Below are positions 12,669-64,000 of a stretch of DNA of 64,000 nucleotides, one piece after another. A program made the position numbers and the translations under genes. The notes below the pieces were generated by a model. It saw only the letters and a program-made list of their open reading frames with translations. It did not search any database and had not been told where the DNA came from. Source of the stretch: Phytophthora quininea (lineage: Eukaryota; Oomycota; Peronosporomycetes; Peronosporales; Peronosporaceae); contig JAAVTG010000748.1 of the NCBI GenBank assembly GCA_011947345.1, positions 1-64,000 on the forward strand, in the 5' to 3' direction. The number at the start of each line of letters is the position of its first letter. The stretch's first letter is position 1.

Positions 12669-12808
12669 TCTCAAGACAAGCAAACCGCAGGAAGAAGACT
12701 CGCAACTCGTACGCACACTAATATATATAGCCCCATCATAAGACGTGGGGTAGTATGACATTCACACGAGGACAATCTCATCACTCTCACTAGTTCCGCT
12801 CTCCTAGA

Positions 12809-13768: not shown

Positions 13769-13899
13769 GACCAGAGAGCGGAGACTTGAGCAGTCGGCGG
13801 CAAATTGAAGACTGACTGGGATATTGCTAATCGAATTCCGGCGGTCCAATGTGCGGCCAGCACGTCGACAGCGTCAGCTATAGTATATTGTACTTTCCT

Positions 13900-22557: not shown

Positions 22558-24514
22558 TGGCGACTGTTATGGTAGTCATCGAAGCAGCCTTCGCTATGTT
22601 CAAGTAGAAGAACACACCTGACACTGCCATGTGTTCGAGTGTCAGCAAACGAAGGTTCTTTTACAGCGCACCAACTGCATCGTCCTCGGGAGATGCTGGC
22701 CAGTGCAGCAAACTGGCTGAGGTGGTCGAGGCTCAATCAATTTGCAGCTACGGCTTCTCTTGCGGCTGGTTACTGCGCCGAACAGCTTTGTGCTCAATTC
22801 AATCCGAAACTTGGCGTGTGTTAGGTTGGACTTGGGGAATGCCAGCTTGTAGAGTAGGTATGCGTTAACGATTGACACGTCGAGCATCCAGTAGAAGAGA
22901 GGCATCCATTTTCGCGGCGAGGTTTGCTGGACCGTGTAGTAGCTACGATACTGGTTGCTTGTGTCGACGCTGCCCATGTAGCTATGACAGATTTTTGAGA
23001 TACATGTATCGCGAGGCTTCATGCCTGCCAAAGATCTGGCACGGTCGAGTTGTGATAACTTACGGGTGTGGGGATACTTGTCGAGCTCCACAAATGCATC
23101 ATCGCCGTGTGTCGTATGGAGAGTCGTTAGAAACTGAGCCGAGCAGCGAACGTCTACCCAAACCACTACCAGTGCGTCCATCACTACTTTGGAGGCCAGG
23201 GTATTCCATGCAAACTTGGCTAGGACTGGAATCCTCTTTGACCGGAAATTCATGTCTTTTGGATACAATTCTGACTTCGCTGCTACTGTTCCGCAAGCTC
23301 CAATCCCTAATTTTCGCAGCCTGTCAAATAATGTGATCGAGGAATAGAAATTATCCATAAAGACGTTGAATTTGTGTGTCTTGTACGGCATCTGCCTGCA
23401 GAGATATACGACGACGGTTGGTGTCGAGCCTGACGTATCTCTGTAGTACTCAAATGCGTATCAATATCCATTACAGCAGACAGAATATAATTTGTAGCTG
23501 TGTGGAATAGGCTTTCTCGGCATATTGACAGTATGGGGAGAGACACCGGTGAACCGCACCATCATTTCGTCCACAGATACATTTGTAGCAGGCCTGTAGT
23601 ATCCTTTAAATTTGGCGGCTAACATCGACGACACGGGTTCCAGTTTTGCGAAGGTTTTTGGCTGCTGGTTGGAGTCCGCTATCGAATCAGGTGGAGAAAC
23701 GTGTATAGTTGTTCGTAGTTCCTGAAAGCGGTCTCGAGTCATTTTTGAGACGAATCCATACTTTAGAAGAGCGTCATCCGTAGACCAACACTCCAGCGGT
23801 CGTGCTATGCCAAACATGCCCACAATGCCAAGCCAAACTTTTAACTCCCCAAGGTGAAATGGTGCCACGCTGTATTTCCATCGTTATCTCCACGTGAACA
23901 CTTCAGGTCTCTGTACAGGTTCGTGTTTTTCACATTAAGTGCCAGTTTTTCACCTTCCCAGAACAAACAAAACGTGTCGAGCGCACAAGGTCCACCATTG
24001 AGCAGACTTTCAGGCAGCAACGCCTCTTCCTCATGGTCGGAGAAAGGGCTTTCAAACGGCTCAAAGGTTTGATCCACACCAACGTAGTGACCACTCTTGC
24101 TCTGCACACCCTGCTTCCCTCCACCGATTCCAGCGTCTGGTGCACGTTCAGGAGTCTGCTGTCCAGCTTTCCTCGCACGATGGCGGTCCAGGAAGAGCAC
24201 TACTTCATACGCACGCTTGTTCTCCCAAGTATGTGGGTCGCGAGCTTTGGCGCGGTCGAAGGCTGCCTCCAACTCATCGTCGTCCTCGCTGTGGCTGTCA
24301 CTGTCGCTCTCACGACCAGCAACTTGATAGCGGTTGGAATTGCGGACGATCTCCAACCTAGAGTCTACCCAGTCCTTCAATTGCTCGAGCGGGTTTGTTC
24401 TGTTCTGGAGATTGCCAAGCGCTGACTGCTCGCAATTCCTTCTCGTAATCGAAGGGTGTAGATTTGTGTGCGTTACACAACTAGTTTTATCCTTTTTCCT
24501 TGGACAAATCGGCT
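22558..24514 (-). pseudogene. piggyBac transposase, one stop and frame changes
   Basis: DDE transposase of the piggyBac family (DDE_Tnp_1_7), read from about 24514 to 22558. An acidic N-terminal part (RESDSDSHSEDDDELEAAFD) leads into the catalytic domain. The frame changes at a G run near 23850 (WHHFTL / GELKVWLG). All three catalytic aspartates are present: SVDEMM (codon 23569-23571), FMDNFYSS (codon 23353-23355) and GSVDTSNQYRSYY (codon 22963-22965). One in-frame TGA at 23461-23463 interrupts the otherwise continuous frame from 23868 to 22642. A frame change near 22680 leads into the C-terminal Cys/His domain (RCSWCAVKE ... GCFDDYH). It is inactive as written but lightly damaged. The element's own ends are not clear. 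Confidence 0.88.
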
Positions 24515-39927: not shown

Positions 39928-40134
39928 GGCGATGCTCGATAGGAGGAAGGATTTTGTTCTGCCAGCTCTCTACAAAATGTACAACGGAAGTTTTAAATGT
40001 TTTTTGTAATGCCAGCCGTTCTTTTATCAGCTCTTTTTACCCAGTTCGCAACGCTTCTTATTGGCGAAAAACGCTAAAATTCTCGACTCCTATTGGCTAT
40101 AACTAAGCGACAACATAGTGTCGATTTCTGGCGG

Positions 40135-40153
40135 CTGGGAGTCAAAGGGTTAA
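40135..40153 (-). repeat. right terminal inverted repeat and TTAA duplication
   Basis: CTGGGAGTCAAAGGG followed by TTAA at 40150-40153. It mirrors the left terminus with one mismatch. Confidence 0.85.
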
Positions 40154-41468
40154 GAAACTCGTACTTCACCCGGTTTTCTTTCTTCACACTATCCAGATAC
40201 GCGGCTGCACTGGCATTCGTGCGACTTAATTCGGATCGGAAGAAATTGTAGTCATTCTCACAGTCAGTTTTGGCCATGCGAGTGACCAGGTTCCGTTCCG
40301 TATTAGTGAGTGCATGCTTTTCAGTAATATTCCGCTTGATATGTTGTAGGCAGAACCGGTGGCCGGTGTTGGGAAATTTTTTCTTAAAGGCACTTGTCAG
40401 ACCTTTCTGGCGATCGGAAATTGCAGTGAAATGTTCAAAGTCTCCTAGGGCGTCTTTAACTACCTGGAGAAACCACGACCAATTAGCGTCGTTTGTCACT
40501 CCAACCAATGCCATAGCAAACGGCGTTACGTGCTTGTTGTAGTCTTTTGCTGTGGCAACTAAGAAAACCCCAAACTCGTTCATCTCCCGCTCCGTCAAAG
40601 CCTATCATCCGTCGGCCCATGGTGGCAATTCGGATTCCAATGTTAGGAATCAAGCAAGCTCGAGAAAATGTTCCGTCGGAACACTTCACGAATCTCCATA
40701 CTGATCCGGGATTACCAGTAGTTACCATTTCGAGATACGTCTCTAGCCTCTGATAGCTTAGTAGTCGGTCACCACGAAGTTGGTCATCCATTCCGGTTTT
40801 AATACGCGAAATGGCGGACAAACTGAGTGTATGTCCTCACTCTTCAGGAAATTCTGAATAGCTTTTCCTGTCATCGTGTCTGTAGATCCTCCATGAGTTG
40901 GCAGCATTTTGAAGACAACCAAGGACTTACATGCTTCGAGCGATTGAGTTGTATCTCTTTTCTTTTTGGCAGGACGCGGGATGGAACCCTCGACAGGAGG
41001 ATCACTAGAAAAAACAACGTTTTTCAGGTGCTTATGACAGAGGTTTAGTCATGTAATTTGCCAGCGATCTGGTTTCCCCGAGAAGTTGATGAAAAATGGA
41101 CAATTAATGGCAGCAGTATCCGCGTCGCGATCAAAGTATTGCTGGCCGTATAAGTTTTTGCAGCAATACTTGGCGTTGTATGCGCTGCTGTTCTTGACAA
41201 AGAGCTGAAATCCACACTTAAATGCGAACTGTTTGCAGCGAAGTTACAGAGCCTTTTGAGTGGCGTGAAAGTCAGCACCAAGGTTCCGGTGACCGTCGCT
41301 AGCTGTTCCGTAGCTCGTGTCGTTCTTCGTCTCCGTTTGGATAGGGGCGTCCTCGCGAAGAAGTTCCATGTTCTTTGCGATCGCAACATCAGAAGCCTCT
41401 AAGACAAGCATCGACGGGCTGCCGAACATCTCCGGGTGGGCAGGAGTTTTGGCCTTCTTCTGGCTCAT
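40150..41468 (-). pseudogene. MULE transposase, N-terminal half (FAR1-like and catalytic domain)
   Basis: It begins MSQKKAKTPAHPEMFGSPSM, shifts frame to a FAR1-like zinc-binding region (FAFKCGFQLFVKNSS, YCCKNLYGQQYFDRDADTAA), then a linker (MDDQLRGDRLLSYQRLETYL) and the MULE catalytic core. In the core, GRRMIGFDGA supplies the first Asp, ISDRQKGLTSAFKKKFPN the second, and FCLQHIKRNI the conserved C-x2-H. The frame is open from 40598 to the TTAA at 40150-40153, where it is cut after KYEFL by the 14.7-kb insert. Frame changes near 41230, 41045 and 40595, and several stops in the linker, show that the gene is dead apart from the insertion. Confidence 0.88.
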
Positions 41469-45331: not shown

Positions 45332-46440
45332 GTAAGAAAACGCTGATGGTTAATCAAAACGCGGTAGTCCAAACAAACGCAACATCTCCCAGGATATCGG
45401 TTAACAGCTGATGTTAAGTCTGGTGGGCACGCGAGCGTGCAGTTAAGCGAGAGGACGCTTTAGTGAGCAAGTACCAAAGCGAAAGTGAGCTCTGGCCAAG
45501 TTGGTAACCCTGTTCGCGCCCTTTGAGAACCCGAGTTGCGGTCATCTGACCAGTCGCAATCGTGCAGTCCGTGGTTGCTTTGGTTGACTGCCTGGAAACT
45601 GTGCCTTCATCCAAGATCCTTCGTAAACCAATCAGATTGTGGATTGCTGCAAAATTGATATAATTACGTGAGACGATATTCGTTTTGTGAAATATGTTTT
45701 CAGACAGAGAAAGTAACATGAAGCATTTTAGTTGGCTGGGTATTTTGTCTGATATATACTTTCCATAAAAGGACAGCTGGTAGTTAGCTTGCCAGTAGCT
45801 GCATTGTGTCCGCTGGTGTAGTGTTCTTCGTACCAAGCGATGGATTACCGTGCTGTCCATAGCCGCGAACGTAGCGGTATCGATTATACCAGTATGCAGC
45901 TGCTTAAAACCATGTACTAACAATCGGGCATTGTACCTAATATTTTCGCGATTTCACGCAGCACCCAACTCAAATGTGAGTATTTTAACCAATTTCTATG
46001 TTGCAGCCCCGCGAGGGCGATTGACCAATATTCAAGTACAGTTTCAGATCAATATCTCAACCTCGGCTTCGTCAAATATGGTGTAAAACTCTGGTGCCTT
46101 TAATAGCCAGAAGGTAAGAACGGTGCGCGATGTGGTTTACTGAAACGTATTTCGTGACGTCGATTCTAGTACCTGCGAGCAGCTCTTTTATCTTTTTCTC
46201 GCGAGTAGTTGGTACCATTGTGCCCGCTGAGAGGGGGAAGCGGAGTGAGTTCTGCTTTGCAGACGAACGGTACGACTTGGCATTTTTGGTTTACTTTCAC
46301 CTGTATTTACGGAGTGACCAAGGACGATCGTTTAGCGATACGACCTTTGTGTTATATCAAGCATTGGTGTTTGCATAGCACAGACACGGTCAGACTTGCT
46401 TCGGATATTATCGTCAGCGTACCGACAGTCTCCTGGCTGC
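45332..46440. other. no recognisable gene
   Basis: Two medium frames exist, 45414-45923 minus (MLVHGFKQLHTGIIDTATFA) and 46130-46378 plus (MWFTETYFVTSILVPASSSF). Neither has a domain or an intron pattern I can support. The tRNA array begins at the end of this stretch. Confidence 0.35.
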
Positions 46441-46810
46441 TCAAAGTCGAGGCTTCGAGTCCGTCCGACGTCACTGACTGTCATGCAGCATGAGCAATGG
46501 AATCGGTGCAGTGCTGTCCTAGCTCGTCTGCCAGTACAGTCGGCTTTCTGAACACACGTAGCCAGTCATGTGACCATGCTACAGACATCTCCAGTCATGG
46601 CTGCCAGTGTCGGGTGTCGGAGGGATGGCCTGGGTTCTCAGCGCGTATCGCCATGGACCATTGGAGTCTGTTCGTGTCAGTCATCCTGTCCACCAGTACG
46701 TAGGTTAGCGAGCTCTGGCGCTCGACTGGCGCCACTCATCAGCCTCCCGACACCATCCAGCAGGCACGGCCACCTCTATTCATCACTGAGGTCAACGGTT
46801 CGGCCCCGAC

Positions 46811-46852
46811 GAACACCGAACGCCGAACGCCGAACGCCGAACGCCGATCGCT
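46811..46852 (+). repeat. GAACGCC heptamer microsatellite (unit 1 example)
   Basis: Heptamer run CGAAC(A/G)C CGAACGC ... upstream of CGATCGCTCTC. One heptamer more or less accounts for the 1126/1134 bp size classes. The stretch is absent from the four short units because it lies in the deleted segment. Confidence 0.85.
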
Positions 46853-46930
46853 CTCCTGGGTTCTGTCGACTCCTGCATCGCTTGAAACGTGTTGTCACCA
46901 GCACAGACATGATAGAGCAGCGAAAGGAGG

Positions 46931-47030
46931 GTCGCCGGCGCAAAAGTATGGTCGCCGACGCAACAGTATGGCCGCCGACGCAACAGTATGGCCGCCGACG
47001 CAACAGTATGGCCGCTCACGCAAAAGTATG
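46931..47030 (+). repeat. five 20-bp repeats next to the tRNA (unit 1 example)
   Basis: Five copies of a 20-bp unit of the form GYCGCCGACGCAACAGTATG directly abut the 3' side of the tRNA gene. The first and last copies read CAAAAG in place of CAACAG; read on the minus strand these supply TTTT. The unit ending at 59222 has four copies. Confidence 0.9.
47022..47025 (-). terminator. Pol III terminator of tRNA-Lys copy 1
   Basis: Read on the minus strand, TTTT follows the tRNA 3' end after seven bases. A second TTTT lies at the far end of the 20-bp repeats (46942-46945). Copies at 49293, 52347, 53473 and 56191 have only TTT at the near site. Confidence 0.75.
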
Positions 47031-47032
47031 GT

Positions 47033-47105
47033 CGCCCACCGTGGGGCTCGAACCCACGACCACAAGATTAAGAGTCTTGCGCTCTACCGACTGAGCTAGA
47101 CGGGC
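47033..47105 (-). tRNA. tRNA-Lys(CUU), copy 1
   Basis: 73-nt gene with a complete cloverleaf. The acceptor stem GCCCGUC pairs with GGUGGGC (two G-U pairs) with discriminator G. The D arm is GCUC/GAGC. The anticodon stem CAAGA/UCUUG encloses loop CUCUUAA, giving anticodon CUU (Lys, AAG codons). The T arm is GUGGG/CCCAC with loop UUCGAGC. There is no intron, and CCA is not encoded. The internal B box GGTTCGAGCCC is intact and the A box sits in TAGCTCAGTCGG. Confidence 0.98.
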
Positions 47106-48166
47106 TGCACGAATGACATATCCGCCGCGGTACATCACAATCCGACGACAACCTCCACAACACAATTCACCGCACCAAACACGGTGGAGCACACTACGCG
47201 GCTGCAACGATGTTCACACACTCCTGTGCCGTGCTCTAGCACTGTGCAGAGATGACGTTTGCCTCCATAAACTTATAAGTCTCTCATCCAACATTCCTGG
47301 TTCTGGAGAAACGACCATTGCTCTCCATGGTATCCTAACGATGCCTACGGCCATGTGCTAGCATTAACGACCTTGCTGACCCACCTCCATGGACCTGCAA
47401 GTCCGATCCATCGCACAGTCTAGTAGCAGAGGTGAACGTTTGAGACAGTCACGAATCGCGCGCTACCGCGATGAAGGCCGAATCGACGCCATGGTTCGAT
47501 GCGCCATGACGCGTACAGCTGCTTAGCGCGGTCGAACACTGGAAAACGATACCTACCTCATTCCGGGCGGCCGGTCAAAGTCGAGGCTTCGAGTCCGTCC
47601 GACGTCACTGACTGTCATGCAGCATGAGCAATGGAATCGGTGCAGTGCTGTCCTAGCTCGTCTGCCAGTACAGTCGGCTTTCTGAACACACGTAGCCAGT
47701 CATGTGACCATGCTACAGACATCTCCAGTCATGGCTGCCAGTGTCGGGTGTCGGAGGGATGGCCTGGGTTCTCAGCGCGTATCGCCATGGACCATTGGAG
47801 TCTGTTCGTGTCAGTCATCCTGTCCACCAGTACGTAGGTTAGCGAGCTCTGGCGCTCGACTGGCACCACTCATCAGCCTCCCGACACCATCCAGCAGGCA
47901 CGGCCACCTCTATTCATCACTGAGGTCAACGGTTCGGCCCCGACGAACGCCGAACGCCGAACGCCGAACGCCGAACGCCGATCGCTCTCCTGGGTTCTGT
48001 CGACTCCTGCATCGCTTGAAACGTGTTGTCACCAGCACAGACATGATAGAGCAGCGAAAGGAGGGTCGCCGGCGCAAAAGTATGGTCGCCGACGCAACAG
48101 TATGGCCGCCGACGCAACAGTATGGCCGCCGACGCAACAGTATGGCCGCTCACGCAAAAGTATGGT

Positions 48167-48239
48167 CGCCCACCGTGGGGCTCGAACCCACGACCACAAG
48201 ATTAAGAGTCTTGCGCTCTACCGACTGAGCTAGACGGGC
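48167..48239 (-). tRNA. tRNA-Lys(CUU), copy 2
   Basis: Identical to copy 1 and 1134 bp from it. TTTT is present at both the near and far terminator sites. Confidence 0.98.
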
Positions 48240-49292
48240 TGCACGAATGACATATCCGCCGCGGTACATCACAATCCGACGACAACCTCCACAACACAAT
48301 TCACCGCACCAAACACGGTGGAGCACACTACGCGGCTGCAACGATGTTCACACACTCCTGTGCCGTGCTCTAGCACTGTGCAGAGATGACGTTTGCCTCC
48401 ATAAACTTATAAGTCTCTCATCCAACATTCCTGGTTCTGGAGAAACGACCATTGCTCTCCATGGTATCCTAACGATGCCTACGGCCATGTGCTAGCATTA
48501 ACGACCTTGCTGACCCACCTCCATGGACCTGCAAGTCCGATCCATCGCACAGTCTAGTAGCAGAGGTGAACGTTTGAGACAGTCACGAATCGCGCGCTAC
48601 CGCGATGAAGGCCGAATCGACGCCATGGTTCGATGCGCCATGACGCGTACAGCTGCTTAGCGCGGTCGAACACTGGAAAACGATACCTACCTCATTCCGG
48701 GCGGCCGGTCAAAGTCGAGGCTTCGAGTCCGTCCGACGTCACTGACTGTCATGCAGCATGAGCAATGGAATCGGTGCAGTGCTGTCCTAGCTCGTCTGCC
48801 AGTACAGTCGGCTTTCTGAACACACGTAGCCAGTCATGTGACCATGCTACAGACATCTCCAGTCATGGCTGCCAGTGTCGGGTGTCGGAGGGATGGCCTG
48901 GGTTCTCAGCGCGTATCGCCATGGACCATTGGAGTCTGTTCGTGTCAGTCATCCTGTCCACCAGTACGTAGGTTAGCGAGCTCTGGCGCTCGACTGGCGC
49001 CACTCATCAGCCTCCCGACACCATCCAGCAGGCACGGCCACCTCTATTCATCACTGAGGTCAACGGTTCGGCCCCGACGAACGCCGAACGCCGAACGCCG
49101 AACGCCGATCGCTCTCCTGGGTTCTGTCGACTCCTGCATCGCTTGAAACGTGTTGTCACCAGCACAGACATGATAGAGCAGCGAAAGGAGGGTCGCCGGC
49201 GCAAAAGTATGGTCGCCGACGCAACAGTATGGCCGCCGACGCAACAGTATGGCCGCCGACGCAACAGTATGGCCGCTCACGCAAAGTATGGT

Positions 49293-49365
49293 CGCCCACC
49301 GTGGGGCTCGAACCCACGACCACAAGATTAAGAGTCTTGCGCTCTACCGACTGAGCTAGACGGGC
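49293..49365 (-). tRNA. tRNA-Lys(CUU), copy 3
   Basis: Identical gene. The near terminator site is TTT only; the far site (about 80-100 nt on) is TTTT. Confidence 0.98.
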
Positions 49366-50419
49366 TGCACGAATGACATATCCGCCGCGGTACATCACAA
49401 TCCGACGACAACCTCCACAACACAATTCACCGCACCAAACACGGTGGAGCACACTACGCGGCTGCAACGATGTTCACACACTCCTGTGCCGTGCTCTAGC
49501 ACTGTGCAGAGATGACGTTTGCCTCCATAAACTTATAAGTCTCTCATCCAACATTCCTGGTTCTGGAGAAACGACCATTGCTCTCCATGGTATCCTAACG
49601 ATGCCTACGGCCATGTGCTAGCATTAACGACCTTGCTGACCCACCTCCATGGACCTGCAAGTCCGATCCATCGCACAGTCTAGTAGCAGAGGTGAACGTT
49701 TGAGACAGTCACGAATCGCGCGCTACCGCGATGAAGGCCGAATCGACGCCATGGTTCGATGCGCCATGACGCGTACAGCTGCTTAGCGCGGTCGAACACT
49801 GGAAAACGATACCTACCTCATTCCGGGCGGCCGGTCAAAGTCGAGGCTTCGAGTCCGTCCGACGTCACTGACTGTCATGCAGCATGAGCAATGGAATCGG
49901 TGCAGTGCTGTCCTAGCTCGTCTGCCAGTACAGTCGGCTTTCTGAACACACGTAGCCAGTCATGTGACCATGCTACAGACATCTCCAGTCATGGCTGCCA
50001 GTGTCGGGTGTCGGAGGGATGGCCTGGGTTCTCAGCGCGTATCGCCATGGACCATTGGAGTCTGTTCGTGTCAGTCATCCTGTCCACCAGTACGTAGGTT
50101 AGCGAGCTCTGGCGCTCGACTGGCGCCACTCATCAGCCTCCCGACACCATCCAGCAGGCACGGCCACCTCTATTCATCACTGAGGTCAACGGTTCGGCCC
50201 CGACGAACGCCGAACGCCGAACGCCGAACGCCGATCGCTCTCCTGGGTTCTGTCGACTCCTGCATCGCTTGAAACGTGTTGTCACCAGCACAGACATGAT
50301 AGAGCAGCGAAAGGAGGGTCGCCGGCGCAAAAGTATGGTCGCCGACGCAACAGTATGGCCGCCGACGCAACAGTATGGCCGCCGACGCAACAGTATGGCC
50401 GCTCACGCAAAAGTATGGT

Positions 50420-50492
50420 CGCCCACCGTGGGGCTCGAACCCACGACCACAAGATTAAGAGTCTTGCGCTCTACCGACTGAGCTAGACGGGC
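50420..50492 (-). tRNA. tRNA-Lys(CUU), copy 4
   Basis: Identical gene with TTTT at both sites. Confidence 0.98.
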
Positions 50493-51213
50493 TGCACGAA
50501 TGACATATCCGCCGCGGTACATCACAATCCGACGACAACCTCCACAACACAATTCACCGCACCAAACACGGTGGAGCACACTACGCGGCTGCAACGATGT
50601 TCACACACTCCTGTGCCGTGCTCTAGCACTGTGCAGAGATGACGTTTGCCTCCATAAACTTATAAGTCTCTCATCCAACATTCCTGGTTCTGGAGAAACG
50701 ACCATTGCTCTCCATGGTATCCTAACGATGCCTACGGCCATGTGCTAGCATTAACGACCTTGCTGACCCACCTCCATGGACCTGCAAGTCCGATCCATCG
50801 CACAGTCTAGTAGCAGAGGTGAACGTTTGAGACAGTCACGAATCGCGCGCTACCGCGATGAAGGCCGAATCGACGCCATGGTTCGATGCGCCATGACGCG
50901 TACAGCTGCTTAGCGCGGTCGAACACTGGAAAACGATACCTACCTCATTCCGGGCGGCCGGTCAAAGTCGAGGCTTCGAGTCCGTCCGACGTCACTGACT
51001 GTCATGCAGCATGAGCAATGGAATCGGTGCAGTGCTCTGGGTTCTGTCGACTCCTGCATCGCTTGAAACGTGTTGTCACCAGCACAGACATGATAGAGCA
51101 GCGAAAGGAGGGTCGCCGGCGCAAAAGTATGGTCGCCGACGCAACAGTATGGCCGCCGACGCAACAGTATGGCCGCCGACGCAACAGTATGGCCGCTCAC
51201 GCAAAAGTATGGT

Positions 51214-51286
51214 CGCCCACCGTGGGGCTCGAACCCACGACCACAAGATTAAGAGTCTTGCGCTCTACCGACTGAGCTAGACGGGC
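51214..51286 (-). tRNA. tRNA-Lys(CUU), copy 5
   Basis: Identical gene in the first short (794-bp) unit, with TTTT at both sites. Confidence 0.98.
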
Positions 51287-52346
51287 TGCACGAATGACAT
51301 ATCCGCCGCGGTACATCACAATCCGACGACAACCTCCACAACACAATTCACCGCACCAAACACGGTGGAGCACACTACGCGGCTGCAACGATGTTCACAC
51401 ACTCCTGTGCCGTGCTCTAGCACTGTGCAGAGATGACGTTTGCCTCCATAAACTTATAAGTCTCTCATCCAACATTCCTGGTTCTGGAGAAACGACCATT
51501 GCTCTCCATGGTATCCTAACGATGCCTACGGCCATGTGCTAGCATTAACGACCTTGCTGACCCACCTCCATGGACCTGCAAGTCCGATCCATCGCACAGT
51601 CTAGTAGCAGAGGTGAACGTTTGAGACAGTCACGAATCGCGCGCTACCGCGATGAAGGCCGAATCGACGCCATGGTTCGATGCGCCATGACGCGTACAGC
51701 TGCTTAGCGCGGTCGAACACTGGAAAACGATACCTACCTCATTCCGGGCGGCCGGTCAAAGTCGAGGCTTCGAGTCCGTCCGACGTCACTGACTGTCATG
51801 CAGCATGAGCAATGGAATCGGTGCAGTGCTGTCCTAGCTCGTCTGCCAGTACAGTCGGCTTTCTGAACACACGTAGCCAGTCATGTGACCATGCTACAGA
51901 CATCTCCAGTCATGGCTGCCAGTGTCGGGTGTCGGAGGGATGGCCTGGGTTCTCAGCGCGTATCGCCATGGACCATTGGAGTCTGTTCGTGTCAGTCATC
52001 CTGTCCACCAGTACGTAGGTTAGCGAGCTCTGGCGCTCGACTGGCGCCACTCATCAGCCTCCCGACACCATCCAGCAGGCACGGCCACCTCTATTCATCA
52101 CTGAGGTCAACGGTTCGGCCCCGACGAACGCCGAACGCCGAACGCCGAACGCCGAACGCCGAACGCTCTCCTGGGTTCTGTCGACTCCTGCATCGCTTGA
52201 AACGTGTTGTCACCAGCACAGACATGATAGAGCAGCGAAAGGAGGGTCGCCGGCGCAAAAGTATGGTCGCCGACGCAACAGTATGGTCGCCGACGCAACA
52301 GTATGGCCGCCGACGCAACAGTATGGCCGCTCACGCAAAGTATGGT

Positions 52347-52419
52347 CGCCCACCGTGGGGCTCGAACCCACGACCACAAGATTAAGAGTCTTGCGCTCTA
52401 CCGACTGAGCTAGACGGGC
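52347..52419 (-). tRNA. tRNA-Lys(CUU), copy 6
   Basis: Identical gene; near site TTT, far site TTTT. The heptamer run of this unit ends CGAACG in place of CGATCG. Confidence 0.98.
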
Positions 52420-53472
52420 TGCACGAATGACATATCCGCCGCGGTACATCACAATCCGACGACAACCTCCACAACACAATTCACCGCACCAAACACGGTG
52501 GAGCACACTACGCGGCTGCAACGATGTTCACACACTCCTGTGCCGTGCTCTAGCACTGTGCAGAGATGACGTTTGCCTCCATAAACTTATAAGTCTCTCA
52601 TCCAACATTCCTGGTTCTGGAGAAACGACCATTGCTCTCCATGGTATCCTAACGATGCCTACGGCCATGTGCTAGCATTAACGACCTTGCTGACCCACCT
52701 CCATGGACCTGCAAGTCCGATCCATCGCACAGTCTAGTAGCAGAGGTGAACGTTTGAGACAGTCACGAATCGCGCGCTACCGCGATGAAGGCCGAATCGA
52801 CGCCATGGTTCGATGCGCCATGACGCGTACAGCTGCTTAGCGCGGTCGAACACTGGAAAACGATACCTACCTCATTCCGGGCGGCCGGTCAAAGTCGAGG
52901 CTTCGAGTCCGTCCGACGTCACTGACTGTCATGCAGCATGAGCAATGGAATCGGTGCAGTGCTGTCCTAGCTCGTCTGCCAGTACAGTCGGCTTTCTGAA
53001 CACACGTAGCCAGTCATGTGACCATGCTACAGACATCTCCAGTCATGGCTGCCAGTGTCGGGTGTCGGAGGGATGGCCTGGGTTCTCAGCGCGTATCGCC
53101 ATGGACCATTGGAGTCTGTTCGTGTCAGTCATCCTGTCCACCAGTACGTAGGTTAGCGAGCTCTGGCGCTCGACTGGCGCCACTCATCAGCCTCCCGACA
53201 CCATCCAGCAGGCACGGCCACCTCTATTCATCACTGAGGTCAACGGTTCGGCCCCGACGAACGCCGAACGCCGAACGCCGAACGCCGATCGCTCTCCTGG
53301 GTTCTGTCGACTCCTGCATCGCTTGAAACGTGTTGTCACCAGCACAGACATGATAGAGCAGCGAAAGGAGGGTCGCCGGCGCAAAAGTATGGTCGCCGAC
53401 GCAACAGTATGGCCGCCGACGCAACAGTATGGCCGCCGACGCAACAGTATGGCCGCTCACGCAAAGTATGGT

Positions 53473-53545
53473 CGCCCACCGTGGGGCTCGAACCCACGAC
53501 CACAAGATTAAGAGTCTTGCGCTCTACCGACTGAGCTAGACGGGC
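53473..53545 (-). tRNA. tRNA-Lys(CUU), copy 7
   Basis: Identical gene; near site TTT, far site TTTT. Confidence 0.98.
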
Positions 53546-54265
53546 TGCACGAATGACATATCCGCCGCGGTACATCACAATCCGACGACAACCTCCACAA
53601 CACAATTCACCGCACCAAACACGGTGGAGCACACTACGCGGCTGCAACGATGTTCACACACTCCTGTGCCGTGCTCTAGCACTGTGCAGAGATGACGTTT
53701 GCCTCCATAAACTTATAAGTCTCTCATCCAACATTCCTGGTTCTGGAGAAACGACCATTGCTCTCCATGGTATCCTAACGATGCCTACGGCCATGTGCTA
53801 GCATTAACGACCTTGCTGACCCACCTCCATGGACCTGCAAGTCCGATCCATCGCACAGTCTAGTAGCAGAGGTGAACGTTTGAGACAGTCACGAATCGCG
53901 CGCTACCGCGATGAAGGCCGAATCGACGCCATGGTTCGATGCGCCATGACGCGTACAGCTGCTTAGCGCGGTCGAACACTGGAAACGATACCTACCTCAT
54001 TCCGGGCGGCCGGTCAAAGTCGAGGCTTCGAGTCCGTCCGACGTCACTGACTGTCATGCAGCATGAGCAATGGAATCGGTGCAGTGCTCTGGGTTCTGTC
54101 GACTCCTGCATCGCTTGAAACGTGTTGTCACCAGCACAGACATGATAGAGCAGCGAAAGGAGGGTCGCCGGCGCAAAAGTATGGTCGCCGACGCAACAGT
54201 ATGGCCGCCGACGCAACAGTATGGCCGCCGACGCAACAGTATGGCCGCTCACGCAAAAGTATGGT

Positions 54266-54338
54266 CGCCCACCGTGGGGCTCGAACCCACGACCACAAGA
54301 TTAAGAGTCTTGCGCTCTACCGACTGAGCTAGACGGGC
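54266..54338 (-). tRNA. tRNA-Lys(CUU), copy 8
   Basis: Identical gene in a short (793-bp) unit; TTTT at both sites. Confidence 0.98.
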
Positions 54339-55057
54339 TGCACGAATGACATATCCGCCGCGGTACATCACAATCCGACGACAACCTCCACAACACAATT
54401 CACCGCACCAAACACGGTGGAGCACACTACGCGGCTGCAACGATGTTCACACACTCCTGTGCCGTGCTCTAGCACTGTGCAGAGATGACGTTTGCCTCCA
54501 TAAACTTATAAGTCTCTCATCCAACATTCCTGGTTCTGGAGAAACGACCATTGCTCTCCATGGTATCCTAACGATGCCTACGGCCATGTGCTAGCATTAA
54601 CGACCTTGCTGACCCACCTCCATGGACCTGCAAGTCCGATCCATCGCACAGTCTAGTAGCAGAGGTGAACGTTTGAGACAGTCACGAATCGCGCTACCGC
54701 GATGAAGGCCGAATCGACGCCATGGTTCGATGCGCCATGACGCGTACAGCTGCTTAGCGCGGTCGAACACTGGAAAACGATACCTACCTCATTCCGGGCG
54801 GCCGGTCAAAGTCGAGGCTTCGAGTCCGTCCGACGTCACTGACTGTCATGCAGCATGAGCAATGGAATCGGTGCAGTGCTCTGGGTTCTGTCGACTCCTG
54901 CATCGCTTGAAACGTGTTGTCACCAGCACAGACATGATAGAGCAGCGAAAGGAGGGTCGCCGGCGCAAAAGTATGGTCGCCGACGCAACAGTATGGCCGC
55001 CGACGCAACAGTATGGCCGCCGACGCAACAGTATGGCCGCTCACGCAAAAGTATGGT

Positions 55058-55130
55058 CGCCCACCGTGGGGCTCGAACCCACGACCACAAGATTAAGAGT
55101 CTTGCGCTCTACCGACTGAGCTAGACGGGC
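55058..55130 (-). tRNA. tRNA-Lys(CUU), copy 9
   Basis: Identical gene in a short (792-bp) unit next to another short one. A GC dinucleotide is missing from the GCGCGC run upstream in the unit. Confidence 0.98.
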
Positions 55131-56190
55131 TGCACGAATGACATATCCGCCGCGGTACATCACAATCCGACGACAACCTCCACAACACAATTCACCGCAC
55201 CAAACACGGTGGAGCACACTACGCGGCTGCAACGATGTTCACACACTCCTGTGCCGTGCTCTAGCACTGTGCAGAGATGACGTTTGCCTCCATAAACTTA
55301 TAAGTCTCTCATCCAACATTCCTGGTTCTGGAGAAACGACCATTGCTCTCCATGGTATCCTAACGATGCCTACGGCCATGTGCTAGCATTAACGACCTTG
55401 CTGACCCACCTCCATGGACCTGCAAGTCCGATCCATCGCACAGTCTAGTAGCAGAGGTGAACGTTTGAGACAGTCACGAATCGCGCGCTACCGCGATGAA
55501 GGCCGAATCGACGCCATGGTTCGATGCGCCATGACGCGTACAGCTGCTTAGCGCGGTCGAACACTGGAAAACGATACCTACCTCATTCCGGGCGGCCGGT
55601 CAAAGTCGAGGCTTCGAGTCCGTCCGACGTCACTGACTGTCATGCAGCATGAGCAATGGAATCGGTGCAGTGCTGTCCTAGCTCGTCTGCCAGTACAGTC
55701 GGCTTTCTGAACACACGTAGCCAGTCATGTGACCATGCTACAGACATCTCCAGTCATGGCTGCCAGTGTCGGGTGTCGGAGGGATGGCCTGGGTTCTCAG
55801 CGCGTATCGCCATGGACCATTGGAGTCTGTTCGTGTCAGTCATCCTGTCCACCAGTACGTAGGTTAGCGAGCTCTGGCGCTCGACTGGCACCACTCATCA
55901 GCCTCCCGACACCATCCAGCAGGCACGGCCACCTCTATTCATCACTGAGGTCAACGGTTCGGCCCCGACGAACGCCGAACGCCGAACGCCGAACGCCGAA
56001 CGCCGATCGCTCTCCTGGGTTCTGTCGACTCCTGCATCGCTTGAAACGTGTTGTCACCAGCACAGACATGATAGAGCAGCGAAAGGAGGGTCGCCGGCGC
56101 AAAAGTATGGTCGCCGACGCAACAGTATGGTCGCCGACGCAACAGTATGGCCGCCGACGCAACAGTATGGCCGCTCACGCAAAGTATGGT

Positions 56191-56263
56191 CGCCCACCGT
56201 GGGGCTCGAACCCACGACCACAAGATTAAGAGTCTTGCGCTCTACCGACTGAGCTAGACGGGC
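56191..56263 (-). tRNA. tRNA-Lys(CUU), copy 10
   Basis: Identical gene; near site TTT, far site TTTT. Confidence 0.98.
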
Positions 56264-57316
56264 TGCACGAATGACATATCCGCCGCGGTACATCACAATC
56301 CGACGACAACCTCCACAACACAATTCACCGCACCAAACACGGTGGAGCACACTACGCGGCTGCAACGATGTTCACACACTCCTGTGCCGTGCTCTAGCAC
56401 TGTGCAGAGATGACGTTTGCCTCCATAAACTTATAAGTCTCTCATCCAACATTCCTGGTTCTGGAGAAACGACCATTGCTCTCCATGGTATCCTAACGAT
56501 GCCTACGGCCATGTGCTAGCATTAACGACCTTGCTGACCCACCTCCATGGACCTGCAAGTCCGATCCATCGCACAGTCTAGTAGCAGAGGTGAACGTTTG
56601 AGACAGTCACGAATCGCGCGCTACCGCGATGAAGGCCGAATCGACGCCATGGTTCGATGCGCCATGACGCGTACAGCTGCTTAGCGCGGTCGAACACTGG
56701 AAAACGATACCTACCTCATTCCGGGCGGCCGGTCAAAGTCGAGGCTTCGAGTCCGTCCGACGTCACTGACTGTCATGCAGCATGAGCAATGGAATCGGTG
56801 CAGTGCTGTCCTAGCTCGTCTGCCAGTACAGTCGGCTTTCTGAACACACGTAGCCAGTCATGTGACCATGCTACAGACATCTCCAGTCATGGCTGCCAGT
56901 GTCGGGTGTCGGAGGGATGGCCTGGGTTCTCAGCGCGTATCGCCATGGACCATTGGAGTCTGTTCGTGTCAGTCATCCTGTCCACCAGTACGTAGGTTAG
57001 CGAGCTCTGGCGCTCGACTGGCGCCACTCATCAGCCTCCCGACACCATCCAGCAGGCACGGCCACCTCTATTCATCACTGAGGTCAACGGTTCGGCCCCG
57101 ACGAACGCCGAACGCCGAACGCCGAACGCCGATCGCTCTCCTGGGTTCTGTCGACTCCTGCATCGCTTGAAACGTGTTGTCACCAGCACAGACATGATAG
57201 AGCAGCGAAAGGAGGGTCGCCGGCGCAAAGTATGGTCGCCGACGCAACAGTATGGTCGCCGACGCAACAGTATGGCCGCCGACGCAACAGTATGGCCGCT
57301 CACGCAAAAGTATGGT

Positions 57317-57389
57317 CGCCCACCGTGGGGCTCGAACCCACGACCACAAGATTAAGAGTCTTGCGCTCTACCGACTGAGCTAGACGGGC
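57317..57389 (-). tRNA. tRNA-Lys(CUU), copy 11
   Basis: Identical gene; near site TTTT, far site reduced to TTT. Confidence 0.98.
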
Positions 57390-58449
57390 TGCACGAATGA
57401 CATATCCGCCGCGGTACATCACAATCCGACGACAACCTCCACAACACAATTCACCGCACCAAACACGGTGGAGCACACTACGCGGCTGCAACGATGTTCA
57501 CACACTCCTGTGCCGTGCTCTAGCACTGTGCAGAGATGACGTTTGCCTCCATAAACTTATAAGTCTCTCATCCAACATTCCTGGTTCTGGAGAAACGACC
57601 ATTGCTCTCCATGGTATCCTAACGATGCCTACGGCCATGTGCTAGCATTAACGACCTTGCTGACCCACCTCCATGGACCTGCAAGTCCGATCCATCGCAC
57701 AGTCTAGTAGCAGAGGTGAACGTTTGAGACAGTCACGAATCGCGCGCTACCGCGATGAAGGCCGAATCGACGCCATGGTTCGATGCGCCATGACGCGTAC
57801 AGCTGCTTAGCGCGGTCGAACACTGGAAAACGATACCTACCTCATTCCGGGCGGCCGGTCAAAGTCGAGGCTTCGAGTCCGTCCGACGTCACTGACTGTC
57901 ATGCAGCATGAGCAATGGAATCGGTGCAGTGCTGTCCTAGCTCGTCTGCCAGTACAGTCGGCTTTCTGAACACACGTAGCCAGTCATGTGACCATGCTAC
58001 AGACATCTCCAGTCATGGCTGCCAGTGTCGGGTGTCGGAGGGATGGCCTGGGTTCTCAGCGCGTATCGCCATGGACCATTGGAGTCTGTTCGTGTCAGTC
58101 ATCCTGTCCACCAGTACGTAGGTTAGCGAGCTCTGGCGCTCGACTGGCACCACTCATCAGCCTCCCGACACCATCCAGCAGGCACGGCCACCTCTATTCA
58201 TCACTGAGGTCAACGGTTCGGCCCCGACGAACGCCGAACGCCGAACGCCGAACGCCGAACGCCGATCGCTCTCCTGGGTTCTGTCGACTCCTGCATCGCT
58301 TGAAACGTGTTGTCACCAGCACAGACATGATAGAGCAGCGAAAGGAGGGTCGCCGGCGCAAAGTATGGTCGCCGACGCAACAGTATGGTCGCCGACGCAA
58401 CAGTATGGCCGCCGACGCAACAGTATGGCCGCTCACGCAAAAGTATGGT

Positions 58450-58522
58450 CGCCCACCGTGGGGCTCGAACCCACGACCACAAGATTAAGAGTCTTGCGCT
58501 CTACCGACTGAGCTAGACGGGC
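58450..58522 (-). tRNA. tRNA-Lys(CUU), copy 12
   Basis: Identical gene; near site TTTT, far site TTT. Confidence 0.98.
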
Positions 58523-59221
58523 TGCACGAATGACATATCCGCCGCGGTACATCACAATCCGACGACAACCTCCACAACACAATTCACCGCACCAAACACG
58601 GTGGAGCACACTACGCGGCTGCAACGATGTTCACACACTCCTGTGCCGTGCTCTAGCACTGTGCAGAGATGACGTTTGCCTCCATAAACTTATAAGTCTC
58701 TCATCCAACATTCCTGGTTCTGGAGAAACGACCATTGCTCTCCATGGTATCCTAACGATGCCTACGGCCATGTGCTAGCATTAACGACCTTGCTGACCCA
58801 CCTCCATGGACCTGCAAGTCCGATCCATCGCACAGTCTAGTAGCAGAGGTGAACGTTTGAGACAGTCACGAATCGCGCTACCGCGATGAAGGCCGAATCG
58901 ACGCCATGGTTCGATGCGCCATGACGCGTACAGCTGCTTAGCGCGGTCGAACACTGGAAAACGATACCTACCTCATTCCGGGCGGCCGGTCAAAGTCGAG
59001 GCTTCGAGTCCGTCCGACGTCACTGACTGTCATGCAGCATGAGCAATGGAATCGGTGCAGTGCTCTGGGTTCTGTCGACTCCTGCATCGCTTGAAACGTG
59101 TTGTCACCAGCACAGACATGATAGAGCAGCGAAAGGAGGGTCGCCGGCGCAACAGTATGGTCGCCGACGCAACAGTATGGCCGCCGACGCAACAGTATGG
59201 CCGCTCACGCAAAAGTATGGT

Positions 59222-59294
59222 CGCCCACCGTGGGGCTCGAACCCACGACCACAAGATTAAGAGTCTTGCGCTCTACCGACTGAGCTAGACGGGC
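59222..59294 (-). tRNA. tRNA-Lys(CUU), copy 13
   Basis: Identical gene in the shortest unit (772 bp), which has four 20-bp repeats. The far site is lost (CAACAG) and the near site is TTTT. Confidence 0.98.
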
Positions 59295-60355
59295 TGCACG
59301 AATGACATATCCGCCGCGGTACATCACAATCCGACGACAACCTCCACAACACAATTCACCGCACCAAACACGGTGGAGCACACTACGCGGCTGCAACGAT
59401 GTTCACACACTCCTGTGCCGTGCTCTAGCACTGTGCAGAGATGACGTTTGCCTCCATAAACTTATAAGTCTCTCATCCAACATTCCTGGTTCTGGAGAAA
59501 CGACCATTGCTCTCCATGGTATCCTAACGATGCCTACGGCCATGTGCTAGCATTAACGACCTTGCTGACCCACCTCCATGGACCTGCAAGTCCGATCCAT
59601 CGCACAGTCTAGTAGCAGAGGTGAACGTTTGAGACAGTCACGAATCGCGCGCTACCGCGATGAAGGCCGAATCGACGCCATGGATCGATGCGCCATGACG
59701 CGTACAGCTGCTTAGCGCGGTCGAACACTGGAAAACGATACCTACCTCATTCCGGGCGGCCGGTCAAAGTCGAGGCTTCGAGTCCGTCCGACGTCACTGA
59801 CTGTCATGCAGCATGAGCAATGGAATCGGTGCAGTGCTGTCCTAGCTCGTCTGCCAGTACAGTCGGCTTTCTGAACACACGTAGCCAGTCATGTGACCAT
59901 GCTACAGACATCTCCAGTCATGGCTGCCAGTGTCGGGTGTCGGAGGGATGGCCTGGGTTCTCAGCGCGTATCGCCATGGACCATTGGAGTCTGTTCGTGT
60001 CAGTCATCCTGTCCACCAGTACGTAGGTTAGCGAGCTCTGGCGCTCGACTGGCACCACTCATCAGCCTCCCGACACCATCCAGCAGGCACGGCCACCTCT
60101 ATTCATCACTGAGGTCAACGGTTCGGCCCCGACGAACGCCGAACGCCGAACGCCGAACGCCGAACGCCGATCGCTCTCCTGGGTTCTGTCGACTCCTGCA
60201 TCGCTTGAAACGTGTTGTCACCAGCACAGACATGATAGAGCAGCGAAAGGAGGGTCGCCGGCGCAAAAGTATGGTCGCCGACGCAACAGTATGGTCGCCG
60301 ACGCAACAGTATGGCCGCCGACGCAACAGTATGGCCGCTCACGCAAAAGTATGGT

Positions 60356-60428
60356 CGCCCACCGTGGGGCTCGAACCCACGACCACAAGATTAAGAGTCT
60401 TGCGCTCTACCGACTGAGCTAGACGGGC
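60356..60428 (-). tRNA. tRNA-Lys(CUU), copy 14
   Basis: Identical gene; TTTT at both sites. The spacer upstream has one substitution (ATGGATCGATG, near 59683). Confidence 0.98.
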
Positions 60429-61482
60429 TGCACGAATGACATATCCGCCGCGGTACATCACAATCCGACGACAACCTCCACAACACAATTCACCGCACCA
60501 AACACGGTGGAGCACACTACGCGGCTGCAACGATGTTCACACACTCCTGTGCCGTGCTCTAGCACTGTGCAGAGATGACGTTTGCCTCCATAAACTTATA
60601 AGTCTCTCATCCAACATTCCTGGTTCTGGAGAAACGACCATTGCTCTCCATGGTATCCTAACGATGCCTACGGCCATGTGCTAGCATTAACGACCTTGCT
60701 GACCCACCTCCATGGACCTGCAAGTCCGATCCATCGCACAGTCTAGTAGCAGAGGTGAACGTTTGAGACAGTCACGAATCGCGCGCTACCGCGATGAAGG
60801 CCGAATCGACGCCATGGTTCGATGCGCCATGACGCGTACAGCTGCTTAGCGCGGTCGAACACTGGAAAACGATACCTACCTCATTCCGGGCGGCCGGTCA
60901 AAGTCGAGGCTTCGAGTCCGTCCGACGTCACTGACTGTCATGCAGCATGAGCAATGGAATCGGTGCAGTGCTGTCCTAGCTCGTCTGCCAGTACAGTCGG
61001 CTTTCTGAACACACGTAGCCAGTCATGTGACCATGCTACAGACATCTCCAGTCATGGCTGCCAGTGTCGGGTGTCGGAGGGATGGCCTGGGTTCTCAGCG
61101 CGTATCGCCATGGACCATTGGAGTCTGTTCGTGTCAGTCATCCTGTCCACCAGTACGTAGGTTAGCGAGCTCTGGCGCTCGACTGGCACCACTCATCAGC
61201 CTCCCGACACCATCCAGCAGGCACGGCCACCTCTATTCATCACTGAGGTCAACGGTTCGGCCCCGACGAACGCCGAACGCCGAACGCCGAACGCCGATCG
61301 CTCTCCTGGGTTCTGTCGACTCCTGCATCGCTTGAAACGTGTTGTCACCAGCACAGACATGATAGAGCAGCGAAAGGAGGGTCGCCGGCGCAAAAGTATG
61401 GTCGCCGACGCAACAGTATGGTCGCCGACGCAACAGTATGGCCGCCGACGCAACAGTATGGCCGCTCACGCAAAAGTATGGT

Positions 61483-61555
61483 CGCCCACCGTGGGGCTCG
61501 AACCCACGACCACAAGATTAAGAGTCTTGCGCTCTACCGACTGAGCTAGACGGGC
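61483..61555 (-). tRNA. tRNA-Lys(CUU), copy 15
   Basis: Identical gene; TTTT at both sites. The 5' flank has one substitution (GATGCTCAC, near 61662). Confidence 0.98.
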
Positions 61556-62616
61556 TGCACGAATGACATATCCGCCGCGGTACATCACAATCCGACGACA
61601 ACCTCCACAACACAATTCACCGCACCAAACACGGTGGAGCACACTACGCGGCTGCAACGATGCTCACACACTCCTGTGCCGTGCTCTAGCACTGTGCAGA
61701 GATGACGTTTGCCTCCATAAACTTATAAGTCTCTCATCCAACATTCCTGGTTCTGGAGAAACGACCATTGCTCTCCATGGTATCCTAACGATGCCTACGG
61801 CCATGTGCTAGCATTAACGACCTTGCTGACCCACCTCCATGGACCTGCAAGTCCGATCCATCGCACAGTCTAGTAGCAGAGGTGAACGTTTGAGACAGTC
61901 ACGAATCGCGCGCTACCGCGATGAAGGCCGAATCGACGCCATGGTTCGATGCGCCATGACGCGTACAGCTGCTTAGCGCGGTCGAACACTGGAAAACGAT
62001 ACCTACCTCATTCCGGGCGGCCGGTCAAAGTCGAGGCTTCGAGTCCGTCCGACGTCACTGACTGTCATGCAGCATGAGCAATGGAATCGGTGCAGTGCTG
62101 TCCTAGCTCGTCTGCCAGTACAGTCGGCTTTCTGAACACACGTAGCCAGTCATGTGACCATGCTACAGACATCTCCAGTCATGGCTGCCAGTGTCGGGTG
62201 TCGGAGGGATGGCCTGGGTTCTCAGCGCGTATCGCCATGGACCATTGGAGTCTGTTCGTGTCAGTCATCCTGTCCACCAGTACGTAGGTTAGCGAGCTCT
62301 GGCGCTCGACTGGCGCCACTCATCAGCCTCCCGACACCATCCAGCAGGCACGGCCACCTCTATTCATCACTGAGGTCAACGGTTCGGCCCCGACGAACGC
62401 CGAACGCCGAACGCCGAACGCCGAACGCCGATCGCTCTCCTGGGTTCTGTCGACTCCTGCATCGCTTGAAACGTGTTGTCACCAGCACAGACATGATAGA
62501 GCAGCGAAAGGAGGGTCGCCGGCGCAAAAGTATGGTCGCCGACGCAACAGTATGGCCGCCGACGCAACAGTATGGCCGCCGACGCAACAGTATGGCCGCT
62601 CACGCAAAAGTATGGT

Positions 62617-62689
62617 CGCCCACCGTGGGGCTCGAACCCACGACCACAAGATTAAGAGTCTTGCGCTCTACCGACTGAGCTAGACGGGC
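62617..62689 (-). tRNA. tRNA-Lys(CUU), copy 16 (last)
   Basis: Identical gene; TTTT at both sites. Its 5' flank (62690-63182) carries more private substitutions than inner units (near 62933, 62947, 63081 and 63172), as expected at the edge of an array. Confidence 0.98.
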
Positions 62690-63182
62690 TGCACGAATGA
62701 CATATCCGCCGCGGTACATCACAATCCGACGACAACCTCCACAACACAATTCACCGCACCAAACACGGTGGAGCACACTACGCGGCTGCAACGATGTTCA
62801 CACACTCCTGTGCCGTGCTCTAGCACTGTGCAGAGATGACGTTTGCCTCCATAAACTTATAAGTCTCTCATCCAACATTCCTGGTTCTGGAGAAACGACC
62901 ATTGCTCTCCATGGTATCCTAACGATGCCTACAGCCATGTGCTAGCGTTAACGACCTTGCTGACCCACCTCCATGGACCTGCAAGTCCGATCCATCGCAC
63001 AGTCTAGTAGCAGAGGTGAACGTTTGAGACAGTCACGAATCGCGCGCTACCGCGATGAAGGCCGAATCGACGCCATGGTTTGATGCGCCATGACGCGTAC
63101 AGCTGCTTAGCGCGGTCGAACACTGGAAAACGATACCTACCTCATTCCGGGCGGCCGGTCAAAGTCGAGGCCTCGAGTCCGT

Positions 63183-64000
63183 GCGAGCCGACAATTCCCC
63201 ACCGCCATGCTTGAAGGATTAGGGATTGACCCTGCCAGTGATGGCGCTTGATTGCTGACCTAACTAGATTTATCTAAAGCGAGCTTCATCGAGAGGCGTA
63301 CTATCGGTGATGAAAAGACCGTCTTAACAAATGCCAGCCTGCCTGCAGTCCATAACCGTAGTTGACATGAAATTGCGATAGACAGTGACCTCCAAATTCC
63401 TGGAACCACTTCACTTAATTCACGTTCATCGTTAAGACGCGATCCAGATGACTGGGAATAGCAATTCGGTAAGCGTTCTCGTTGACCATTCCCACCACAC
63501 AAAACGATCCATACTATACAAAGGCCAACTTCTTCAACGTTCTTGTCCCTCGCTTTGTTCTGATGAATTGCTATACTCACACCGGATATCCCACTAGGGT
63601 TACTGGGGACTGCCGCTCCAGACGTTTCTTGTGACGGTCTTGGGCTTTAATCAACTGTAACTCCACTATCCGTCACGAAATCTCTCAGTGACAGGTACAA
63701 TTTCCGCCGGCAGTCAGCCACGGTTCATGATACATATGCGACGGTGCTAATGTAAAACCTAACGCTTCACTAGTAAACCGCATCTTCAACCCAGGAGCGC
63801 AAAAACTCTTGGCTGGATGAAGAAAAGGTAAGGCATACAAGAGTGGAAAAGGTGCAAGGTTGTGCGCACTTTTTCTTACTACCTCCGTAAGGAAAATACT
63901 GAGCATTTCTACCCAAATTGCGTCCTGTTGAGAGGCGGTACCCTGTCTAAAACGATCGAAGGCGGTACCCTTGCAAAAACATTCAGCTTTGAATTTTGAA
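63183..64000. other. no recognisable gene
   Basis: Sequence beyond the array. Minus-strand frames at 63260-63580 and 63685-63906 lack any domain. A 12-bp direct repeat, AGGCGGTACCCT, occurs at 63933-63944 and 63960-63971. Confidence 0.4.

Follow-up and report, generated by a model that had tools for sequence, protein, structure and literature searches.

We analysed a window of 64,000 nucleotides from Phytophthora quininea, namely positions 1-64000 of contig C740 (JAAVTG010000748.1), which is 124,270 bp long and belongs to an assembly of 87.2 Mb in 993 contigs. The window contains a tandem array of tRNA-Lys(CTT) genes. ARAGORN predicts 16 of these genes, which are the only tRNAs it finds there, and each scores 67.8 bits against the Rfam family RF00005, for which the gathering score is 29. 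All 16 are identical over 73 nt and are arranged head to tail on the minus strand between positions 47033 and 62689. A preliminary description of this DNA, made from the letters alone, had proposed sixteen identical tRNA-Lys(CUU) genes of a single isoacceptor in tandem, which is what we find and to which we add the strand; by their tRNA scores the copies are not pseudogenes. In plus-strand order, copies 1 to 4 lie at 47033..47105, 48167..48239, 49293..49365 and 50420..50492, copies 5 to 8 at 51214..51286, 52347..52419, 53473..53545 and 54266..54338, copies 9 to 12 at 55058..55130, 56191..56263, 57317..57389 and 58450..58522, and copies 13 to 16 at 59222..59294, 60356..60428, 61483..61555 and 62617..62689, each recognised by both ARAGORN and Rfam.

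The 15 intervals between the genes are, in the same order, 1134, 1126, 1127, 794, 1133, 1126, 793, 792, 1133, 1126, 1133, 772, 1134, 1127 and 1134 bp. The regular spacing described earlier thus holds for 11 of the 15 intervals (1126-1134 bp) and fails for the remaining four (772-794 bp). These four short units, which end at copy 5 (794 bp) and belong to copies 8 (793 bp), 9 (792 bp) and 13 (772 bp), all lack one common segment of 340 bp, and the last of them also has one copy fewer of a 20-bp minisatellite. Otherwise the units are mostly 99-100% alike, and the window contains no N. A blastn search with one unit places the whole minus-strand array, including partial units at both edges, at 46435..63186. 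By eye, it is bounded by an imperfect direct repeat of about 28 bp, with a left copy at 46441..46468 and a right copy at 63159..63186 that differs from the left at two sites. Of the extent first given, 46441-63182, the left end coincides with the start of the edge repeat, while the right end falls short of position 63186.

Each unit carries the elements expected of a gene with internal promoters. The A-box region and the GGTTCGANNCC box are matched by sequence pattern, and the cloverleaf is intact. Directly 3' of each gene, Tandem Repeats Finder (TRF) detects 4.3-5.3 copies of the 20-bp minisatellite (example unit at 48067..48170 on the minus strand, by TRF and sequence), one variant of which holds a TTTT run after a 7-nt trailer that is likely to act as an RNA polymerase III (Pol III) terminator. 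A 7-bp CGAACGC repeat in five to six copies (example at 47944..47985, by TRF and unit alignment) is found in the window units except the short ones, and is also lacking from the units of the second array on contig C437, described below. When one unit was compared with Rfam at E-values up to 1, only the tRNA was matched. An open reading frame (ORF) of 164-172 amino acids is listed in seven of the 16 units, where it crosses the minisatellite and the tRNA in antisense; it has no Pfam match, and the antisense ORFs at the corresponding place in a second array, described below, are 94-102 amino acids long. We therefore reject a spacer protein and regard this ORF as a chance frame. The tRNA strand of the array is rich in G and T (between 47001 and 63000, the plus strand has a GC skew of about -0.08 to -0.11 and an AT skew of +0.07 to +0.11), and by eye the sequence upstream of several arrayed tRNA genes elsewhere seems G/T rich as well.

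Searching the assembly with a 72-base pattern of the gene, allowing up to three mismatches, gave 31 matches, and the same pattern read backward gave none, so the matches are not due to chance. Thirty are perfect, 16 on C740 and 14 on contig C437, and the remaining one, on contig C723, has three mismatches. The array on C437 contains 16 genes at intervals of 943-947 bp (C437:11943-27096). Altogether, the Lys(CTT) genes detected number 33, with 16 on each of C740 and C437 and one on C723, and 32 of them reside in the two arrays. A looser anticodon-loop pattern gave 32 matches and no new locus, missing one C437 gene that has an insertion; the patterns used in this census could miss more divergent genes. 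The solitary C723 gene reaches 59.6 bits and has a B box that departs from that of the array genes, which leaves the two arrays as the only fully intact source of Lys(CTT) found.

On either side of the array, C437 and C740 are collinear; the matching pieces are about 92-95% identical and are separated by insertions, and the C437 flanks can be followed through the window and into C740 at 64-74 kb. The arrays on the two contigs have corresponding edges, with the same direct repeat of about 28 bp at both. In the left flank (42.5-46.4 kb), the assembly holds, besides C437, two short and weaker matches on C488 and C85. C437 also matches the window at 12.7-15 kb with 96% identity; this part of the window (12700-15000) occurs a third time in the assembly, near-identical (100%) at C739:16452-18749, and no Lys(CTT) gene was found on C739 with the 72-base and anticodon-loop patterns. 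We read C740 and C437 as two homologues, which may be either diverged haplotypes or the subgenomes of a hybrid. The gene number is exactly 16 in each array even though the units appear to have been homogenised since the homologues diverged; this could reflect either chance or a control of array size.

The comparison of the two arrays bears on how the units have stayed alike. When all units are aligned, the consensus of one array departs from that of the other at 28 of 870 spacer columns. Within an array, diversity averages 0.12% on C740 and 0.15% on C437, compared with 3.1% between the two, making units about 20-27 times closer to others of their own array than to those of the other homologue. 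Among internal units, no single-nucleotide polymorphism (SNP) is common to both arrays, and the three shared columns lie in the partial units at the edges. Small indels, variable in either array, occur at a T-run and at a GC dinucleotide; read errors may explain them. Within C740, SNP135 and SNP380 occur in all four combinations among units (four gametes), and one deletion with identical breakpoints is present in four units that are not all adjacent. Owing to the low diversity within arrays, the 28 differences between them and the absence of shared internal SNPs, the locus appears to be a clean case of concerted evolution within homologues, in which each array would keep its own repeats uniform. 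The earlier attribution of the near-identity of the units to homogenisation agrees with these values. The upstream partial unit of C740 (497 bp) by itself has four private SNPs, not counting the outermost repeat site, compared with three in the 15 complete units together, and variants in the P. infestans arrays are likewise described as often lying near one edge (PMC9584435).

The edges also suggest how the array may have begun. In the sense of the tRNA, the imperfect repeat at both array edges reads CGGACTCGA(A/G)GCCTCGACTTTGA. The left and right edges of the window array disagree at two sites of this repeat, and there every internal junction has the letter found at the downstream edge, which fits a single founding duplication. 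Such a duplication would have arisen by exchange across the direct repeat of about 28 bp, before the homologues split, and unequal exchange, gene conversion or both within each homologue would since have kept the units alike. The spacer itself might seem specially conserved, as substitutions between homologues are fewer there (28/870) than in the flanks adjacent to the array (295/4715; Fisher P 0.0003). We do not claim constraint, because the farther flank is as low (130/4397). The roughly 100 bp 5' of the gene have no substitution between the homologues and only one 1-bp indel, at column 1092, a hint of conservation in a region chosen post hoc.

With intact Pol III-type genes, internal promoter boxes and a short T-run, the array is very probably the main tRNA-Lys(CUU) locus of this organism, and its copies would be active in transcription and jointly provide the AAG-reading tRNA. 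Several observations weigh against this interpretation or against the homogenisation proposed with it. Two C437 genes beyond the 14 perfect matches each carry an indel of one base, an insertion in one and a deletion in the other, and still reach 60.6 and 65.3 bits. The T-run after the 7-nt trailer is TTTT in some units and TTT in others of each array, which may represent read error, slippage or a weak terminator. AAG is used 34 times and AAA 27 times in the five window ORFs with a recognised domain, two of which favour AAA; the comparison of AAG codon use suggested at the outset consequently gives no clear AAG bias in this small sample. Among the markers tested on C437, no pair shows all four gametes, and adjacent units resemble each other more than units in shuffled order do on C437 (P about 0.01) and not on C740 (P 0.51). 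As for the T-run, we considered the TTTT/TTT difference as a biological signal and set it aside, because its presence in both arrays without shared SNPs makes recurrent slippage or read error likelier.

The alternative that survives best is a mostly silent array in which few copies are used and the rest are a by-product of repeat turnover. It has a precedent in the Arabidopsis Ser-Tyr-Tyr cluster, which is reported to be silenced (PMC12308677), and in P. infestans the relation between tRNA gene number and codon use is only modest (R = 0.41; PMC9584435). No other intact Lys(CUU) gene was found in our census, however, and any need for this tRNA would require at least some of the copies to be active. 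Wobble could allow Lys(UUU) to decode AAG, so the need for working Lys(CUU) copies is not proven. On balance, we consider a largely silent array possible but doubtful, and retain an active locus as the better explanation.

The number of units raises a separate question, as 16 could be a product of assembly while the true array has some other count. Units as alike as these are difficult to assemble, other tRNA arrays are cut off by an end of contigs C723, C725 and C62, and it is an odd coincidence that both Lys(CTT) arrays have exactly 16 genes. Against this, the differences among units (the deletion, the heptamer count and the SNPs) follow a non-periodic order, non-array sequence lies on either side, and the second homologous contig has the same edges. 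Copy numbers of tRNA genes in P. infestans are also described as concordant with read depth (PMC9584435). We regard an incorrect count as unlikely.

Less probable still is that the units are tRNA-headed non-coding retroelements expanding in tandem, as proposed for the clusters of Peronospora effusa. The anatomy described there is similar, with identical tRNAs, a less conserved spacer, frameshifted ORFs and a single genomic location, and has been called SINE-like, that is, resembling short interspersed nuclear elements (PMC11540230); the spacer ORF listed in seven of the 16 window units adds to the resemblance. However, a 795-bp piece of the spacer had 34 of 34 matches in the two arrays, both recovered as a positive control, and no dispersed copies elsewhere in the assembly in a search that skips very common words. 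As our genome searches score the best candidates only and skip such words, their results are good but not absolute statements; a query with another part of the spacer returned only matches to the tRNA part, without the window itself, and was not used. The spacers of other arrays in this genome behave similarly: that of an array with Thr, Trp, U6 small nuclear RNA (snRNA) and Ser genes had 19 of 19 matches on its own three contigs (C62, C514 and C515), and that of a Lys(TTT) array had 13 of 15 on C473 and C432, the other two being of 55 bp at 86%, in a result that is incomplete in that the place of the query itself is unlisted. Furthermore, the tRNA part of each unit is an intact 67.8-bit gene that belongs to nearly the only source of Lys(CUU) found, the edge repeats are common to both homologues, no poly-A was seen by eye at the array edges, a sister array carries U6 snRNA, and the spacer ORF has neither a Pfam match nor a counterpart of the same length on C437. 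With nearly all detected copies of the isoacceptor in the arrays, a spacer piece for which matches were seen only there and the U6 matches on the contigs of the sister array, the sequence evidence favours true tRNA genes over SINE-like elements at this locus. The published oomycete readings conflict, with expanded tRNA genes in P. infestans and SINE-like elements in P. effusa, and the locus offers a test between them.

A structural or telomeric role, as suggested for the arrays of Entamoeba that the preliminary description mentions, seems very unlikely here: short tandem repeats lie between the genes as in E. histolytica (PMC2652664), but one end of the 124-kb contig is 46 kb away from the array and the other 61 kb, and non-array sequence flanks it on each side (not decisive, because contig ends are not chromosome ends), no TTTAGGG-type repeat was found in the window, and the telomere idea is described as not yet testable in Entamoeba itself (PMC2652664).

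The array was at first thought to be a distinct case among eukaryotes, a view that does not stand, as tandem tRNA arrays of the same gene have been published for P. infestans (PMC9584435) and Peronospora effusa (PMC11540230) and further arrays occur in the genome studied here. The locus is a well-resolved example of this described oomycete array type; what is new is that both homologues can be compared, and it is useful because both are assembled. Such a homologous pair provides a worked case for timing homogenisation. The closest likeness is to the monomeric arrays of P. infestans (Matson et al. 2022, PMC9584435), in which one gene is repeated head to tail in near-identical units with variants close to an array edge. 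About two-thirds of the tRNA families of that species are described as lying on one chromosome (PMC9584435), and the 32 of 33 Lys(CTT) genes in two homologous arrays resemble its single-locus families. In contrast to its Cys array of 271 genes in 513-nt units, the array here has 16 genes in units of about 1130 bp, and both homologues are resolved. In P. effusa, approximately 99.6% of more than 6,000 tRNAs are reported to fall in 33-39 clusters per isolate (PMC11540230). These clusters share with our locus identical tRNAs, a more variable spacer, one location per repeat and an ORF in the spacer, and inversions within them (PMC11540230) resemble a strand switch in the Lys(TTT) array of the present genome; as set out above, we differ from the SINE-like reading of their authors.

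Outside the oomycetes, Entamoeba also has largely uniform tandem tRNA units, with short repeats between the genes in E. histolytica and E. dispar (Tawari et al. 2007, PMC2652664). Units there have up to five tRNA genes, some together with 5S RNA, the lineage is unrelated, and the telomeric proposal made for those arrays contrasts with an array internal to its contig here. We infer that the inter-gene short repeats are shared by convergence and not by descent. The Ser-Tyr-Tyr and Cys clusters of Arabidopsis and the human 1q23.3 locus are likewise described as locally amplified tRNA units with copy-number variation; most Arabidopsis tRNA genes are dispersed, whereas several isotypes are arrayed here.

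The other arrays were surveyed in pieces chosen from the best search matches and not as a random sample; the tRNA family search covered the best 63 of 4332 candidates and the pattern listing 100 of 141. Within this scope, we found Ile(AAT) arrays spaced at about 550 bp on C207, C723 and C725, Lys(TTT) arrays spaced at about 1.46 and 1.6 kb with the strand switch on C473 and C432, a Gln(TTG)-Gln(CTG)-Arg(ACG) array on C86, Thr(TGT) arrays on C136 and C551, and a Thr(CGT)-Trp(CCA)-Ser(GCT) array on C62. The last has the tRNA make-up of a Chr1 array described in P. infestans (PMC9584435). In the piece examined (C62:1-9900), four U6 snRNA genes lie inside its 2.67-kb Thr(CGT)-Trp-U6-Ser tandem units, and all 16 U6 matches among the best 48 of 3427 candidates fall on C62, C514 and C515; in the open-licence literature searched, we saw no report of U6 in oomycete tRNA arrays. 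Linkage of 5S to tRNA genes was considered and rejected, as 46 of the 47 5S matches scored among 4464 candidates belong to an array of their own on C87 with a spacing of roughly 530-560 bp, and two overlapping 3.1-kb pieces of it contained no tRNA. A broader conjecture is that the Pol III genes of this oomycete (tRNAs, U6 and 5S) are each confined to a tandem array of their own that alone provides the RNA in question, and that every array is homogenised only within its homologue and fixed in copy number (16 and 16 here), so that array size would be under stabilising control and not drift; we offer it as a long shot.

Some smaller observations concern the surroundings of the array and of its relatives. 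A Fe2OG-dioxygenase ORF in the window has a top match at 90% identity, followed by matches in Nothophytophthora sp. (88%), P. ramorum (86%), P. sojae (86%), P. boehmeriae (85%) and P. kernoviae (84%), which, judged from this one protein, would place the host within the Peronosporaceae. Transposase-type domains occur near the array (DDE_Tnp_1_7, MULE, a BED finger and a hAT dimerisation domain, at 22642-23391 and 40074-40583 in the window and at 6830-9285 in piece L009). On C389, organelle-like tRNA genes repeat with a period of about 36.6 kb, a pattern that would arise if the assembly ran more than once round a mitochondrial genome. A genomic CCA is unusual for nuclear tRNA genes of eukaryotes; on C62, one seems to stand directly after the genes for Trp(CCA) and Thr(CGT), as seen in a single copy of each (piece L024, 833-907 and 5730-5804).

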